Shown here piece after piece: positions 9,478-44,802 of a DNA stretch of 64,000 nt. Under the pieces are notes generated by a model. That model saw only the letters and a list, made by a program, of their open reading frames with translations, did not search any database and was not told the DNA's origin. Origin of the DNA: an uncultured Tateyamaria sp. (GTDB taxonomy: Bacteria > Pseudomonadota > Alphaproteobacteria > Rhodobacterales > Rhodobacteraceae); contig NZ_CANNDN010000001.1 of the NCBI RefSeq assembly GCF_947503465.1, positions 2,129,501 through 2,193,500 on the forward strand, in the 5' to 3' direction. The position numbers and the translations under genes are program-made. Numbering within the stretch: the stretch's first letter is position 1; each line of letters starts with the position of its first letter.

Positions 9478-10191
9478 ATGAGACTATCTTCGCCAATTTA
9501 CACACTTAAGCGTCAAGCAAAACTGCTGGCACGCGACAATGAAATCAAGCTCCACGAGGCACTCAACCAGCTTGCAACCAAAGAGGGCTTCAGGGATTGG
9601 AGCCACTTGGCGTCCAGCTATTCCAAAGCAACTCCAGCCAAAGAAATCATGAGCCAGCTCAAATCAGGCGATATGGTGCTGATCGGTGCGCGCCCTGGTC
9701 ATGGCAAAACCCTTCTTGGGCTGGAGTTGGTTGCATTGGCCAAAAAAAGCAATCGGACAGGTTATGTTTTCTCTTTGGACTACAATGATACGGATGTGTG
9801 GGATCGGTTTGAAAAACTAGGTTTCGACCCAAAGCAACAAGACGGTCCAATCGTCGTTGATACCTCGGATGATATCTGCGCTGATCATATCATTGAACGC
9901 CTCGGCGATACGTCGGGTGATGCATTCGTTGTCGTCGATTACTTGCAGCTTTTGGATCAACGGCGCAGCATTCCACCGCTCGAAGAACAGGTGCGTGCGC
10001 TTAAGGAATCTGCCGTCGAATTTGGAGCGATTGTTGTAATGATCTCACAGATCGATCGCTCTTTTGAGCTGTCAACTAGTGACATGCCGAGCATTGAGGA
10101 CATTCGATTGCCAAATCCAGTCGACTTGGCGCTTTTTGATAGAACGTGCTTCTTACATGACGGCCAAATACAGATAGAGTTGGCAGCATAA
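9478..10191 (+). CDS. Small DnaB-like RecA-fold ATPase with an N-terminal helical module
   Basis: A 237-residue protein resembling only the ATPase core of replicative helicase DnaB. Walker A is GARPGHGKT, Walker B is VVVDYLQLL, the sensor motif is VVMISQIDR, and IEDIRLPNPVDLALFDRTCFL matches the end of the DnaB core. The primase-binding N-terminal domain of DnaB is absent. Instead, about 50 residues (IYTLKRQAKLLARDNEI and EGFRDWSHL) form a small helical module. DnaB is about 450-500 residues, so this cannot be a replicative helicase. Codon use is AT-richer than its neighbours, suggesting transfer. Role unknown; GGAGG lies upstream of the ATG. Confidence 0.7.
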   Translation: MRLSSPIYTLKRQAKLLARDNEIKLHEALNQLATKEGFRDWSHLASSYSKATPAKEIMSQLKSGDMVLIGARPGHGKTLLGLELVALAKKSNRTGYVFSLDYNDTDVWDRFEKLGFDPKQQDGPIVVDTSDDICADHIIERLGDTSGDAFVVVDYLQLLDQRRSIPPLEEQVRALKESAVEFGAIVVMISQIDRSFELSTSDMPSIEDIRLPNPVDLALFDRTCFLHDGQIQIELAA

Positions 10192-10206
10192 CCTCACTCA
10201 AATTTG

Positions 10207-10237
10207 CTTTGCGGACGTTCGTGGAAGGTCCGCAAAG
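10207..10237 (+). terminator. Hairpin after the DnaB-like gene
   Basis: Perfect 10-bp inverted repeat, CTTTGCGGAC and GTCCGCAAAG, with an 11-base loop, 15 bases after the stop codon. No T-run follows, so the role as terminator is likely but not certain. Confidence 0.55.
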
Positions 10238-10278
10238 TCCCGCACAGCCGGCCAACAACACTTCCTTAACGAATAGGG

Positions 10279-10419
10279 CCGTACGCGCCGTTAACCCGCT
10301 GAATTCCCCTAATCGTATGCCGCGCTGTGCACAGGGTGTGCACAGGGGGTGTACGGGTTGTGACCAGGCCCAAAGCCAACAAACAAAAGGGTTAACGCGC
10401 GGTCAGGCGACGTCGCGTC
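10279..10419 (+). repeat. Intergenic element with 11-bp-phased GTGYAC repeats, copy A
   Basis: A 141-bp element between convergent genes. CGTTAAC is at 10289, GAATTC at 10301, TATGCCG at 10316. GTGCAC, GTGCAC, GTGTAC and GTGACC begin at 10327, 10338, 10349 and 10360, exactly 11 bp apart. GTTAACGCG is at 10391 and ACGTCGCGTC at 10410. A second copy with nearly the same spacing lies at 43873-44012. It does not look coding. Function unknown. Confidence 0.75.
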
Positions 10420-10430
10420 CTCTTGGTTGG

Positions 10431-11342
10431 TTAACCGTTGCGCGTACGGTGCGGTCCCGCCAGTGCCGCAACACCCAGGATGACGCCCGAAACGGTCGCG
10501 ATCATCCCCGCCGCGCTGACAGAGGCCGACGCCCCGATCCACAATGGTCCATAGCCCGCCAGCACATATCCCGACACCGCCGCCAGCGCCGCGAACACAA
10601 CCGACCACGCCACCTGATGGCCCAGCCGGTTCGTCATCATCCGCGCCGCAGCCGGGGGGCAGATGAACATCGCAATCACAATGATGGACCCCACCGCGTC
10701 AAAGGCCGCAACCGCTGCGATCGCGGACATGATCACCAATGCAAGACCCAAGGGCCCGGTGCGAATACCCACGCCACGGGCAAACCCCTCGTCAAAGGTG
10801 GACAGGGCCAGTGGGCGCCAGAAAAGCCCTAAAAACAATACGATGACCACCAGCGCAAGCGCCATCCTCGGCAGTTCGACCGGCAGTCCCGACAGCGAGA
10901 CGGGGTCCAGCAACGACGCCCAGCCTGTCGCGTCCAACCAGATCAGGCTCTCCAGATTTCCGTAAAGCGCATGTTCCACATCCAGATGAACCGACGAGGT
11001 GTCCGACTGCTCCAAGAGCAGCACACCGCCTGCAAACATCGCGGTGAAGATCACCCCCATCGCGGCCCCGGCCTCGATCCTGCCCAGGCGTCGCACGGCC
11101 TCAATCGCGACCACTGCAAGCACCGCAGCCCCCGCGGCCCCCAGCAGCATCGGGCCCGTCGCCACCAGCCCCGTCAGCAGGAAGGCGACAACGATCCCCG
11201 GCAACACCACATGGCTGATTGCATCCCCAATCAACGCTTGCCCCCGCAGCAGCAAGAAATTCCCCGGCAGCGCGCATGCGACGGCAACCAGCACGCCAAT
11301 GACGATGGGCGGCAATGACAGGGAGACGAATTCGGCGGTCAT
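10431..11342 (-). CDS. sitD: Manganese/metal ABC transporter permease, second permease
   Basis: A 303-residue inner-membrane permease of the ABC-3 (metal) family with about eight helices. Signature segments are ALPGNFLLLRGQALIGDAIS near the N-terminus and FDAVGSIIVIAMFICPPAAA in the C-terminal half. It pairs with the permease encoded by the preceding gene to form the channel of the importer. The ATG at 11342 overlaps the sitC stop by one base (TGATG). The operon order (binding protein, ATPase, two permeases) is the SitABCD arrangement. Manganese is favoured over zinc from the binding protein; see sitA. Confidence 0.86.
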   Translation of the reverse strand: MTAEFVSLSLPPIVIGVLVAVACALPGNFLLLRGQALIGDAISHVVLPGIVVAFLLTGLVATGPMLLGAAGAAVLAVVAIEAVRRLGRIEAGAAMGVIFTAMFAGGVLLLEQSDTSSVHLDVEHALYGNLESLIWLDATGWASLLDPVSLSGLPVELPRMALALVVIVLFLGLFWRPLALSTFDEGFARGVGIRTGPLGLALVIMSAIAAVAAFDAVGSIIVIAMFICPPAAARMMTNRLGHQVAWSVVFAALAAVSGYVLAGYGPLWIGASASVSAAGMIATVSGVILGVAALAGPHRTRNG

Positions 11343-43122: not shown

Positions 43123-43818
43123 ATGCGACGCGGCGATCGCCTGTTTGAAATCATCGAAATCCTGCGGCGCGCGTCGGGGCCCATCTCTGCGGACTCCATC
43201 GGCGCAAAGCTTGAAGTGACCAAGCGCACGGTTTACCGCGACATCGCCGCGCTGATGGCCCAACGCGTGCCCATCCGCGGAGAGGCGGGCGTGGGTTACG
43301 TCCTGGACCCGGGATTTCACATGCCACCCCTGATGCTGACAGCGGACGAGATCGAGGCCGCCGTCCTGGGCGCCCAATGGGTCGGGACACGGGGCGAGGC
43401 GGACCTCGCACAGGCCGCCGCCAGCCTGATCGCCAAGATCGCCGCTGTCGTCCCGGACGATGCTCGGGGCATCTTTGTCGAACCCGCCACCAGTGTCGCA
43501 CCGGTCGGCTCACCGCCAGAGGTCCTGAGCGCCGCTGACATCCGCGTTGCCATCCGCCAGCGGCACAAGATCGCGCTCACCTATCAAGGCAGCACAGGCA
43601 GCCAGACAAGGCGCACCATCTGGCCCATCCTGATCGGTTACCGCGACGCGGGTCGCATCATCGCTGCATGGTGCGAATTGCGGCACGGCTTCCGCTACTT
43701 CCGCACCGACCGCATCGCCCGGGCCCAGGTATTGCCCGACATGATCCCGCGTCGCATGGACCTGCTGCGCAGCGAATGGCGTGCCGCAATGGATGCGGAA
43801 CGCAAACGCCATGCGTAA
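43123..43818 (+). CDS. YafY-type transcription regulator (HTH plus WYL domain)
   Basis: A 231-residue regulator. Residues 1-60 are a winged helix-turn-helix (RLFEIIEILRRASGPIS, then LEVTKRTVYRDIAALMAQ). Residues about 135-225 are a WYL-like ligand-sensing domain, with IALTYQGSTGSQ and IIAAWCELRHGFRYFRTDRI. The ATG at 43123 follows a weak AAGGGG purine run. It is divergent from the GFA-fold gene with a perfect inverted repeat in between. Ligand unknown. Confidence 0.88.
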   Translation: MRRGDRLFEIIEILRRASGPISADSIGAKLEVTKRTVYRDIAALMAQRVPIRGEAGVGYVLDPGFHMPPLMLTADEIEAAVLGAQWVGTRGEADLAQAAASLIAKIAAVVPDDARGIFVEPATSVAPVGSPPEVLSAADIRVAIRQRHKIALTYQGSTGSQTRRTIWPILIGYRDAGRIIAAWCELRHGFRYFRTDRIARAQVLPDMIPRRMDLLRSEWRAAMDAERKRHA

Positions 43819-43872
43819 GGCGGATCAAACATCCGCCCAACCCCGCGTCAACGCATCGTTAACCTTTCAGCA

Positions 43873-44012
43873 CCGTGCGCTGCGTTAACCCTGCGAATTC
43901 ATGAAGAATATGCCGGATCGGTGTACAGGGTGTGCACAGCAAGTGCACAGGTTGTGTATCGGCCATCGCCCTTGTTTTCATGGTGTTAACGCGAGTCGGG
44001 AAACGTCGCGTC
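43873..44012 (+). repeat. Intergenic element with 11-bp-phased GTGYAC repeats, copy B
   Basis: CGTTAAC is at 43883, GAATTC at 43895, TATGCCG at 43909. GTGTAC, GTGCAC, GTGCAC and GTGTAT begin at 43921, 43932, 43943 and 43954, exactly 11 bp apart. GTTAACGCG starts at 43985 and ACGTCGCGTC at 44003. Spacing is nearly identical to copy A. It lies between convergent genes. Confidence 0.75.
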
Positions 44013-44048
44013 AATAGACGCGGCGCACACCCCACCGAACGTTGCACC

Positions 44049-44696
44049 TCAAAATGGCGCGGCACTCCGAAACCGCATCATTTTGCCACTGTCCGGATGC
44101 TTGATCCGCAGCTCTTCTGAATGCAGCATCAAACGCTCAAAGTTCCGCGCAGGCCCCTCTGCATAAAACGGATCGCCCAATATCGCGTGCCCCAGTTCCG
44201 CCATATGCACACGCAACTGATGGCTGCGCCCGGTCTGCGGCATCAGCCGCACCCGGCTCTCTGTTTCGGTGTCGCGCAACACCCGCCAATCGGTCACCGC
44301 GGGCTTGCCGTTCTCATGATCCACATGCTGTTTCGGGCGGTTCGGCCAGTCCACGATCAGGGGTAGGTCAACCCGCCCCGTCTTGGGCGTCATCCGCCCC
44401 CAAACCCTTGCCACATATGTCTTTTTCGCAGCCCGCAGCTCGAATTGCTTGCCCAGGAACCGCTGCGCATGCGGCGTCAATCCAAACACCATCACCCCGC
44501 TGGTATCCCGGTCCAACCGATGCACCAACAACGCCTGCGGCCACACCGCCTGCACCCGCGCAATCAGGCAATCCGACAGGTGCGCCCCCTTGCCCGGCAC
44601 ACTCAGCAGGCCCGAGGGTTTCGACACCACCAACATCTCTGCGTCATCATGCAGGATGTCCAGGGGATCATTTGGCGGGGCGTAAATGTCATCCAT
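44049..44696 (-). CDS. RluA-family pseudouridine synthase
   Basis: A 215-residue enzyme making pseudouridine in 23S rRNA and/or tRNA. The catalytic aspartate is in LLVHRLDRDTSGVMVFG; other motifs are KPSGLLSVPGKG and MPQTGRSHQLRVHMAELGHAI. It lacks the S4 domain of RluC/RluD, so it is like the short RluA (about 215 residues). The ATG at 44696 was chosen because MDDIYAPPNDP fits family starts; the longer frame to 44801 overlaps the divergent esterase promoter. Confidence 0.9.
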   Translation of the reverse strand: MDDIYAPPNDPLDILHDDAEMLVVSKPSGLLSVPGKGAHLSDCLIARVQAVWPQALLVHRLDRDTSGVMVFGLTPHAQRFLGKQFELRAAKKTYVARVWGRMTPKTGRVDLPLIVDWPNRPKQHVDHENGKPAVTDWRVLRDTETESRVRLMPQTGRSHQLRVHMAELGHAILGDPFYAEGPARNFERLMLHSEELRIKHPDSGKMMRFRSAAPF

Positions 44697-44802
44697 GTTC
44701 GCCGCCTGACAAATGTGCCGGCCAATGACAACCCCCATCACGATTGAGAGAGGGGTCAATACAACAATTGCCTGAATCGGCCGCCCGTGTTCTGTCAGCA
44801 AT

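Follow-up and report, generated by a model that had tools for sequence, protein, structure and literature searches.

The window, by which we mean the whole 64,000-nucleotide stretch of Tateyamaria sp. DNA that was analyzed, holds two copies of an array in which GTGYAC hexamers recur every 11 bp, and these copies belong to a set of at least 32 dispersed intergenic arrays in the same genome. Our best explanation, to which we would give a little less than an even chance, is that the arrays are cooperative nucleoprotein assembly sites placed between transcription units, probably with a structural role. We refer to the GTGYAC core as X, and to an alternative core found in the same genus as Y. The two cores in the window, read from the sequence, and the genes on either side of copy B (gene caller; families assigned by eye) are:

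10327..10365, plus strand: core of copy A, with GTGCAC at 10327, GTGCAC at 10338, GTGTAC at 10349 and a degenerate GTGACC at 10360
43921..43959, plus strand: core of copy B, 11-bp direct repeats with GTGTAC at 43921, GTGCAC at 43932, GTGCAC at 43943 and GTGTAT at 43954
43123..43818, plus strand: WYL-domain-like regulator gene, whose 3' end faces copy B
44049..44738, minus strand: RluA-like pseudouridine synthase gene, convergent with the WYL-domain-like regulator gene

The hexamers of copy B and their positions are as the first-pass annotation gave them. Copy A had been assigned four corresponding positions, 10327 to 10360; its three GTGYAC hexamers are in place, but the fourth retains GTG alone. 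A GTGYAC triplet with an 11-bp step is present exactly twice in the window and in 0 of 100 dinucleotide shuffles, and the only spacings between GTGYAC pairs in the range of 6–44 bp are 11 and 22 bp, all within copies A and B. Genome counts come from pattern searches, with the reversed pattern as control. In the genome itself (4.1 Mb, 10 contigs), a search allowing up to two mismatches gave 77 forward and 72 reverse matches, as compared to 3 and 1 for the reversed pattern, and the matches listed include at least 32 separate GTGYAC arrays, on contigs C1–C4, so that copies A and B are not an isolated pair. The arrays are far more frequent than chance would give and their spacing is retained in related species and genera, which supports the earlier proposal that the sites are in helical phase, as cooperative binding of a protein would require.

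The variable position of the hexamer is C or T, as had been noticed, but the further claim that the palindrome is what is kept did not hold. GTGTAC is not palindromic, and GTGTAC and GTACAC are mixed in 0 of the 32 arrays; two variant units are found in six of the 32, on the same strand in every case, and as no more than these six have them, the strand-mixing test is moderate evidence. That the two forms are never mixed within an array suggests directional direct repeats rather than kept palindromes, and the GTGYAC arrays behave as such.

Gene calling with a simple codon-based caller placed every one of the 32 arrays in intergenic DNA, with 18 in tandem, 8 in convergent and 6 in divergent contexts; in the tandem contexts, 8 arrays point in the same direction as the neighboring genes and 10 in the opposite direction. 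The neighboring genes, judged by eye, are functionally unrelated (ndk, prfC, mtnP, phaB, nrtA, dnaJ, radC, lepA, infA, gltD, petA, an ActR/RegA-type regulator and others). Pooled GTGYAC arrays are found in convergent regions in 19 of 64 cases, as compared to 10 of 115 in the background (p=5e-4), where the contexts come from our home-made ORF caller and the background samples are small; X alone has a moderate convergent bias and is not clearly depleted at divergent promoters. In region 9478–10431 of the window, copy A has on one side an AAA/DnaB-like ATPase gene of atypical composition with a low coding score, and on the other an ABC metal-transporter-like permease gene (both families assigned by eye).

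Response regulators of the OmpR/PhoB type recognize tandem sites of the pho-box type, direct repeats at a spacing of about 11 bp. The directional 11-bp direct repeats resemble such tandem boxes, down to a presumed cooperative binding on one face of the helix, and the arrays could be operators of a conventional global regulator of this type. We consider this improbable given the placement described above: the flanking genes have no common function, few arrays lie in divergent promoter regions, the orientation to the neighbors is mixed, and no coherent set of promoters lies downstream. Unlike OmpR/PhoB boxes, the arrays are not at regulon promoters, many carry a GTTAAC/CGYRCG frame, and their core is replaced in a lineage-specific manner (both described below). 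GalR operators, which share GTGCAC, were set aside as single E. coli operators rather than arrays. A promoter scan found nothing.

In a relative (G003) whose chromosome is represented by a 3.86-Mb contig, the arrays among the matches listed, at least 31 of them, are evenly spread from the origin (parS) to the terminus (KS p=0.87), slightly more evenly than random, and confinement to either end was rejected. Noc and SlmA nucleoid-occlusion sites and the matS sites of MatP are likewise present in tens of dispersed copies that are not bound to a single regulon. The arrays differ from them in showing no terminus depletion or restriction in G003, and in consisting of 4–6 phased sites rather than one operator. 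The spread also speaks against the iterons of a replication origin suggested by the first-pass annotation. Iterons and DnaA-oligomerization arrays share with GTGYAC arrays short direct repeats in helical phase, but iterons are expected at a single locus with an adjacent initiator gene, whereas there are at least 32 dispersed loci here, beside ordinary and unrelated genes, with no initiator gene recognized alongside.

Both copies in the window belong to larger elements that extend beyond the core. The flanking features in the window, all on the plus strand, are:

10280..10295: left flank F of copy A, CGTACG-N4-GTTAAC (pattern CGYRCGNNNCGTTAAC), with the first GTGYAC unit 47 bp from its start
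10391..10396: right GTTAAC of copy A; the left one, at 10290, is 101 bp away
10430..10451: outer right flank of copy A, GTTAACCGTTGCGCGTACGGTG, an inverted CGYRCG partner that recurs about 50 bp past the right GTTAAC
43858..43863: outer GTTAAC of copy B
43874..43889: left flank F of copy B, CGTGCG-N4-GTTAAC
43985..43990: right GTTAAC of copy B; the left one, at 43884, is 101 bp away
44033..44045: outer right flank of copy B, CACCGAACGTTGC, F-like, aligned with CACCGCACGATGC in a relative that has core Y there (L045 vs L369)

At its predicted 3' end, with a stop near 10431, the minus-strand ABC permease ORF runs into the GTTAACCGTTGCGCGTACGGTG flank of copy A. Six of the eight GTTAAC sites in the window frame the two arrays. 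About half of the arrays in the genome have GTTAAC at fixed distances, with CGYRCG before the left one, and the right GTTAAC is often followed, at about 50 bp, by an inverted GCGTACGGTG. Flank F (CGYRCG-N3-CGTTAAC) has 14 sites in the genome, 13 of them at arrays, and 12 to 22 sites in each of three relatives, with an array at nearly all of them; the array-free species G009 and G017 of the same genus have one site each, in unrelated leader-like sequence. We note that such a conserved leader-like sequence (L450:1500, L451:1500, L444:1500, L445:1500) starts near CGYRCG-GTTAACCA and contains GGGAGGGCCGTTTC-GCAGGGCCGC-GAAC; it is also found in array-free species, and its CGYRCG-GTTAAC start is common to it and the flanks by chance or descent.

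The distances fall into classes that differ by whole helical turns: about 26, 36–39 and 47–48 bp from flank F to the first unit, and 81, 90–92 or 101–102 bp between the paired GTTAAC sites (17 cases, which include orthologous loci and are not all independent, although ten loci of this genome alone give the same classes). Steps of whole helical turns are indicative of a protein–DNA complex and not of RNA. The flanks contain single GTTAAC sites, whose pair spacing of 81–101 bp is not that of CtrA sites (TTAA-N7-TTAA). It is very unlikely that the arrays act as RNA, either as hairpins between GUGYAC units or as small RNAs, even though the C-to-U variants retain G-U pairing on one strand. The plus-strand fold z-scores are weak (−1.45 for copy B and −1.85 for copy A), an RNA would give no reason for the helical classes of spacing, the arrays are mixed in orientation relative to the neighboring genes and opposite to the gltD transcript wherever seen, and Rfam at gathering score gave 0 matches in the window and 15 loci.

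The remaining arrays of the genome lack GTTAAC/CGYRCG flanks, and many of them are in operons. Such short-form arrays sit within operons downstream of gltD, between rpoA and rplQ, upstream of lpd and between nrtA and nrtB, where local effects on expression are possible.

Among 20 species of the genus, 15 contain arrays, with 0 to 37 forward matches per species and controls of 0. A family sample of 394 genomes includes 28 with arrays, mostly in numbers, across 27 genera, and when about 85,000 species genomes were scanned, the matches listed were almost only from Rhodobacterales (Tateyamaria, Leisingera, Nioella, Roseovarius, Jannaschia, Yoonia, Paracoccus, Gemmobacter, Litoreibacter, Sulfitobacter and others). 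Positions are conserved as well: about 20 of the 32 arrays have an array at the orthologous intergenic region in G001 or G003, the site downstream of gltD is common to five genera, the rpoA-rplQ site is common to Sulfitobacter and Paracoccus, and further cross-genus sites lie upstream of lpd and between nrtA and nrtB. Hexamer and spacer vary as lineage dialects (GTGTAC-GGGGG, GTGCAC-GCCCT, GTGTAC-GGGTT), and the hexamer itself changes by lineage at a constant 11-bp period, another genus having GTGCAT in place of GTGYAC. Genome G075 has no GTGYAC array; it has 34 RTGCAY-triplet matches per strand at the 11-bp period (controls 0), one of these arrays being downstream of gltD, and G061 has 21 RTGCAY matches (controls 0). 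In 27 pairs of orthologous arrays, identity is 88% in the units (a value inflated because both members of a pair were chosen as arrays), 62% in the flanks and 47% in the 5-bp spacers. The low spacer identity at fixed length is the informative part, as it suggests that the length of the spacer is kept and its sequence is not.

These dialects also bear on whether the arrays are clusters of weak head-to-tail DnaA boxes that titrate DnaA. The DnaA box has TGTGNAY in common with both the form TGTGYACAR and the GTGCAT dialect, and at E. coli oriC head-to-tail oligomers are supported by DnaA boxes in direct repeat (PMC10316083). Units of this genome are often preceded by T, giving TGTG, but many lineages have GGTG in its place, so that the CACA of a TTATNCACA-like core is lost; dialects of this kind are hard to square with a conserved DnaA, and there is no concentration near the origin in G003, so we regard titration of DnaA as highly improbable.

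A plasmid origin was considered and rejected: a blastn search of two array consensuses against PLSDB gave one weak Leisingera and one Bacillus match, the short queries being insensitive. Matches in IMG/VR were set aside as a different kind, as they are mostly A+T-rich iteron-like arrays (e.g. GTGTACTAAAG) with other spacers and surroundings. Four phage contigs (L229, L223, L204, L183) contain GTGTAC-N5 arrays of up to 11 units, with spacers such as TCATA and TAAAG, and these look like replication iterons or operators of different origin.

Some species of the genus carry core Y, which consists of A/T-framed units such as AAACTGCGTGTTTT that are 21 bp apart in pairs. In loci L360–L399 of G001 and G008, Y appears as AAACTGCRNRTTTT units with A/T tracts about every 10.5 bp, and two Y pairs are 74 bp apart in 31 of the 40 loci examined. 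With a loose Y pattern, G001 gave 57 matches (control 3), G008 gave 63 (control 1) and the genome of the window gave 1 (control 1); a strict Y pattern, which would miss Y dialects, gave 0 matches in 100 other genera. Core Y is framed by the same kind of GTTAAC/CGYRCG flanks as the GTGYAC core, and the two replace each other at orthologous places. At the site of copy B, between the WYL and RluA genes, G001 has Y instead of the GTGYAC core, and further swaps between X and Y are found for L042 vs L379 and L398, L046 vs L370 and L396, and L405 vs L376 and L387. Downstream of gltD in the 20 species of the genus, 5 have an 11-bp array, 2 a remnant and 4 neither, and the others have Y or Y variants. 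At the same gltD site, two loci (L298 and L312, in G024 and G068) from genera without GTGYAC arrays hold other repeated or inverted motifs, GTTTTGTACA and CGTTTCGTACGG, which are possibly further cores. Among the genomes of the genus, G000 and G003 have X alone, G001 and G008 have both cores, and G009 and G017 have neither. Several species of the same genus have neither X nor Y above control level, which implies that the function of the arrays is dispensable or replaceable.

The bias in placement is stronger for Y. By the same ORF caller, and again with a small background sample, Y is found in convergent regions in 20 of 38 cases, as compared to 4 of 61 for the background of other intergenic regions (p=3e-7). 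It is seldom at divergent promoters (2 of 38, with 27 of 61 in the background). This convergent enrichment together with the depletion at divergent promoters is what would be expected of protein roadblocks that halt transcription between neighboring units in both directions, and helically packed sites would block strongly. Roadblocks are nonetheless unlikely in our view, as the gene ends that face arrays are not short of terminator-like hairpins (20 of 74 for X and 10 of 56 for Y, with 16 of 102 in the background) and arrays are also found inside operons such as rpoA-rplQ. Intrinsic terminators (a G+C hairpin followed directly by a T run) gave one weak match per window copy, with 0.6 expected, and no significant excess in the sampled loci.

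Dispersed extragenic protein-binding elements as such are a known kind, and BIME-1, BIME-2 and REPs resemble the arrays in being dispersed, extragenic, biased to the 3' ends of genes, composite and presumably protein-binding. The arrays could on this basis be copies of a small non-autonomous mobile element whose ends are the inverted CGYRCG flanks and which was later bound by host proteins, as BIMEs bind gyrase and IHF (PMC2817692). We find this unlikely too. REPs have more than 100 near-identical copies (PMC2817692), whereas the arrays have a few tens of copies that are divergent in sequence and that keep their positions between species and, for some sites, between genera too. In place of palindromic units in alternating orientation, the X units run in one direction as 11-bp direct repeats; the elements have quantized internal spacing and a replaceable core, and neither a REP head is present nor do the inverted outer flanks carry a GTAG/GTGG head. 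RAYT (PF01797, Y1 transposase) was found above the cut-off in none of six genomes of the genus (G000, G001, G003, G008, G009, G017), with one sub-threshold match in G003.

We return to cooperative assembly sites, for which the sequence evidence suggests the following arrangement. Copy number, intergenic placement, period, dialects, flanks, helical spacing classes, conserved positions and the X/Y replacement are seen directly in the sequence, and they strongly imply binding by a protein; wrapping or looping and a structural role are deduced, the latter from the placement and from the lack of a regulon. A putative protein would assemble cooperatively on the core, with one subunit or dimer per 11-bp step and nearly on one helix face. 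In the long form the array would be framed by GTTAAC and CGYRCG in fixed helical phase and, because the flank sites are held in that phase, the whole 150–170 bp would probably constitute a single wrapped or looped nucleoprotein particle. Such a particle may mark or insulate the boundary between transcription units. A chromosome-organizing or insulating role, rather than control of particular genes, seems most likely because the elements are mainly between transcription units and not at divergent promoters, and because their neighbors have no common function. Y can take over the site of a GTGYAC core while flanks of the same kind are retained. This suggests that where the protein docks and how the element is phased count for more than the precise letters, and that the protein binding the core, or what it recognizes, may have changed between lineages.

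A wider reading, which we put forward tentatively, is that Rhodobacterales have a modular docking system in which helically phased GTTAAC/CGYRCG flanks mark conserved intergenic sites, each with an interchangeable array for a lineage-specific DNA-binding protein. Array and protein would turn over (GTGYAC, GTGCAT, Y and further variants) in parallel at dozens of sites while the places are kept, and the system would be chromosome-organizing in a way unlike BIMEs, Noc/SlmA or MatP. We found no description of arrays of this kind in the open-access literature and, as far as we found, the phased direct-repeat core, the quantized flanks and the replacement of the core at fixed places are new. If confirmed, many marine Rhodobacterales would carry an undescribed set of dozens of docking sites between transcription units. 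These would provide a natural experiment in which a DNA-binding protein and its many sites co-evolve simultaneously, as well as a tractable system (strains such as Tateyamaria, Leisingera, Nioella) for studying how neighboring transcription units are insulated or organized.
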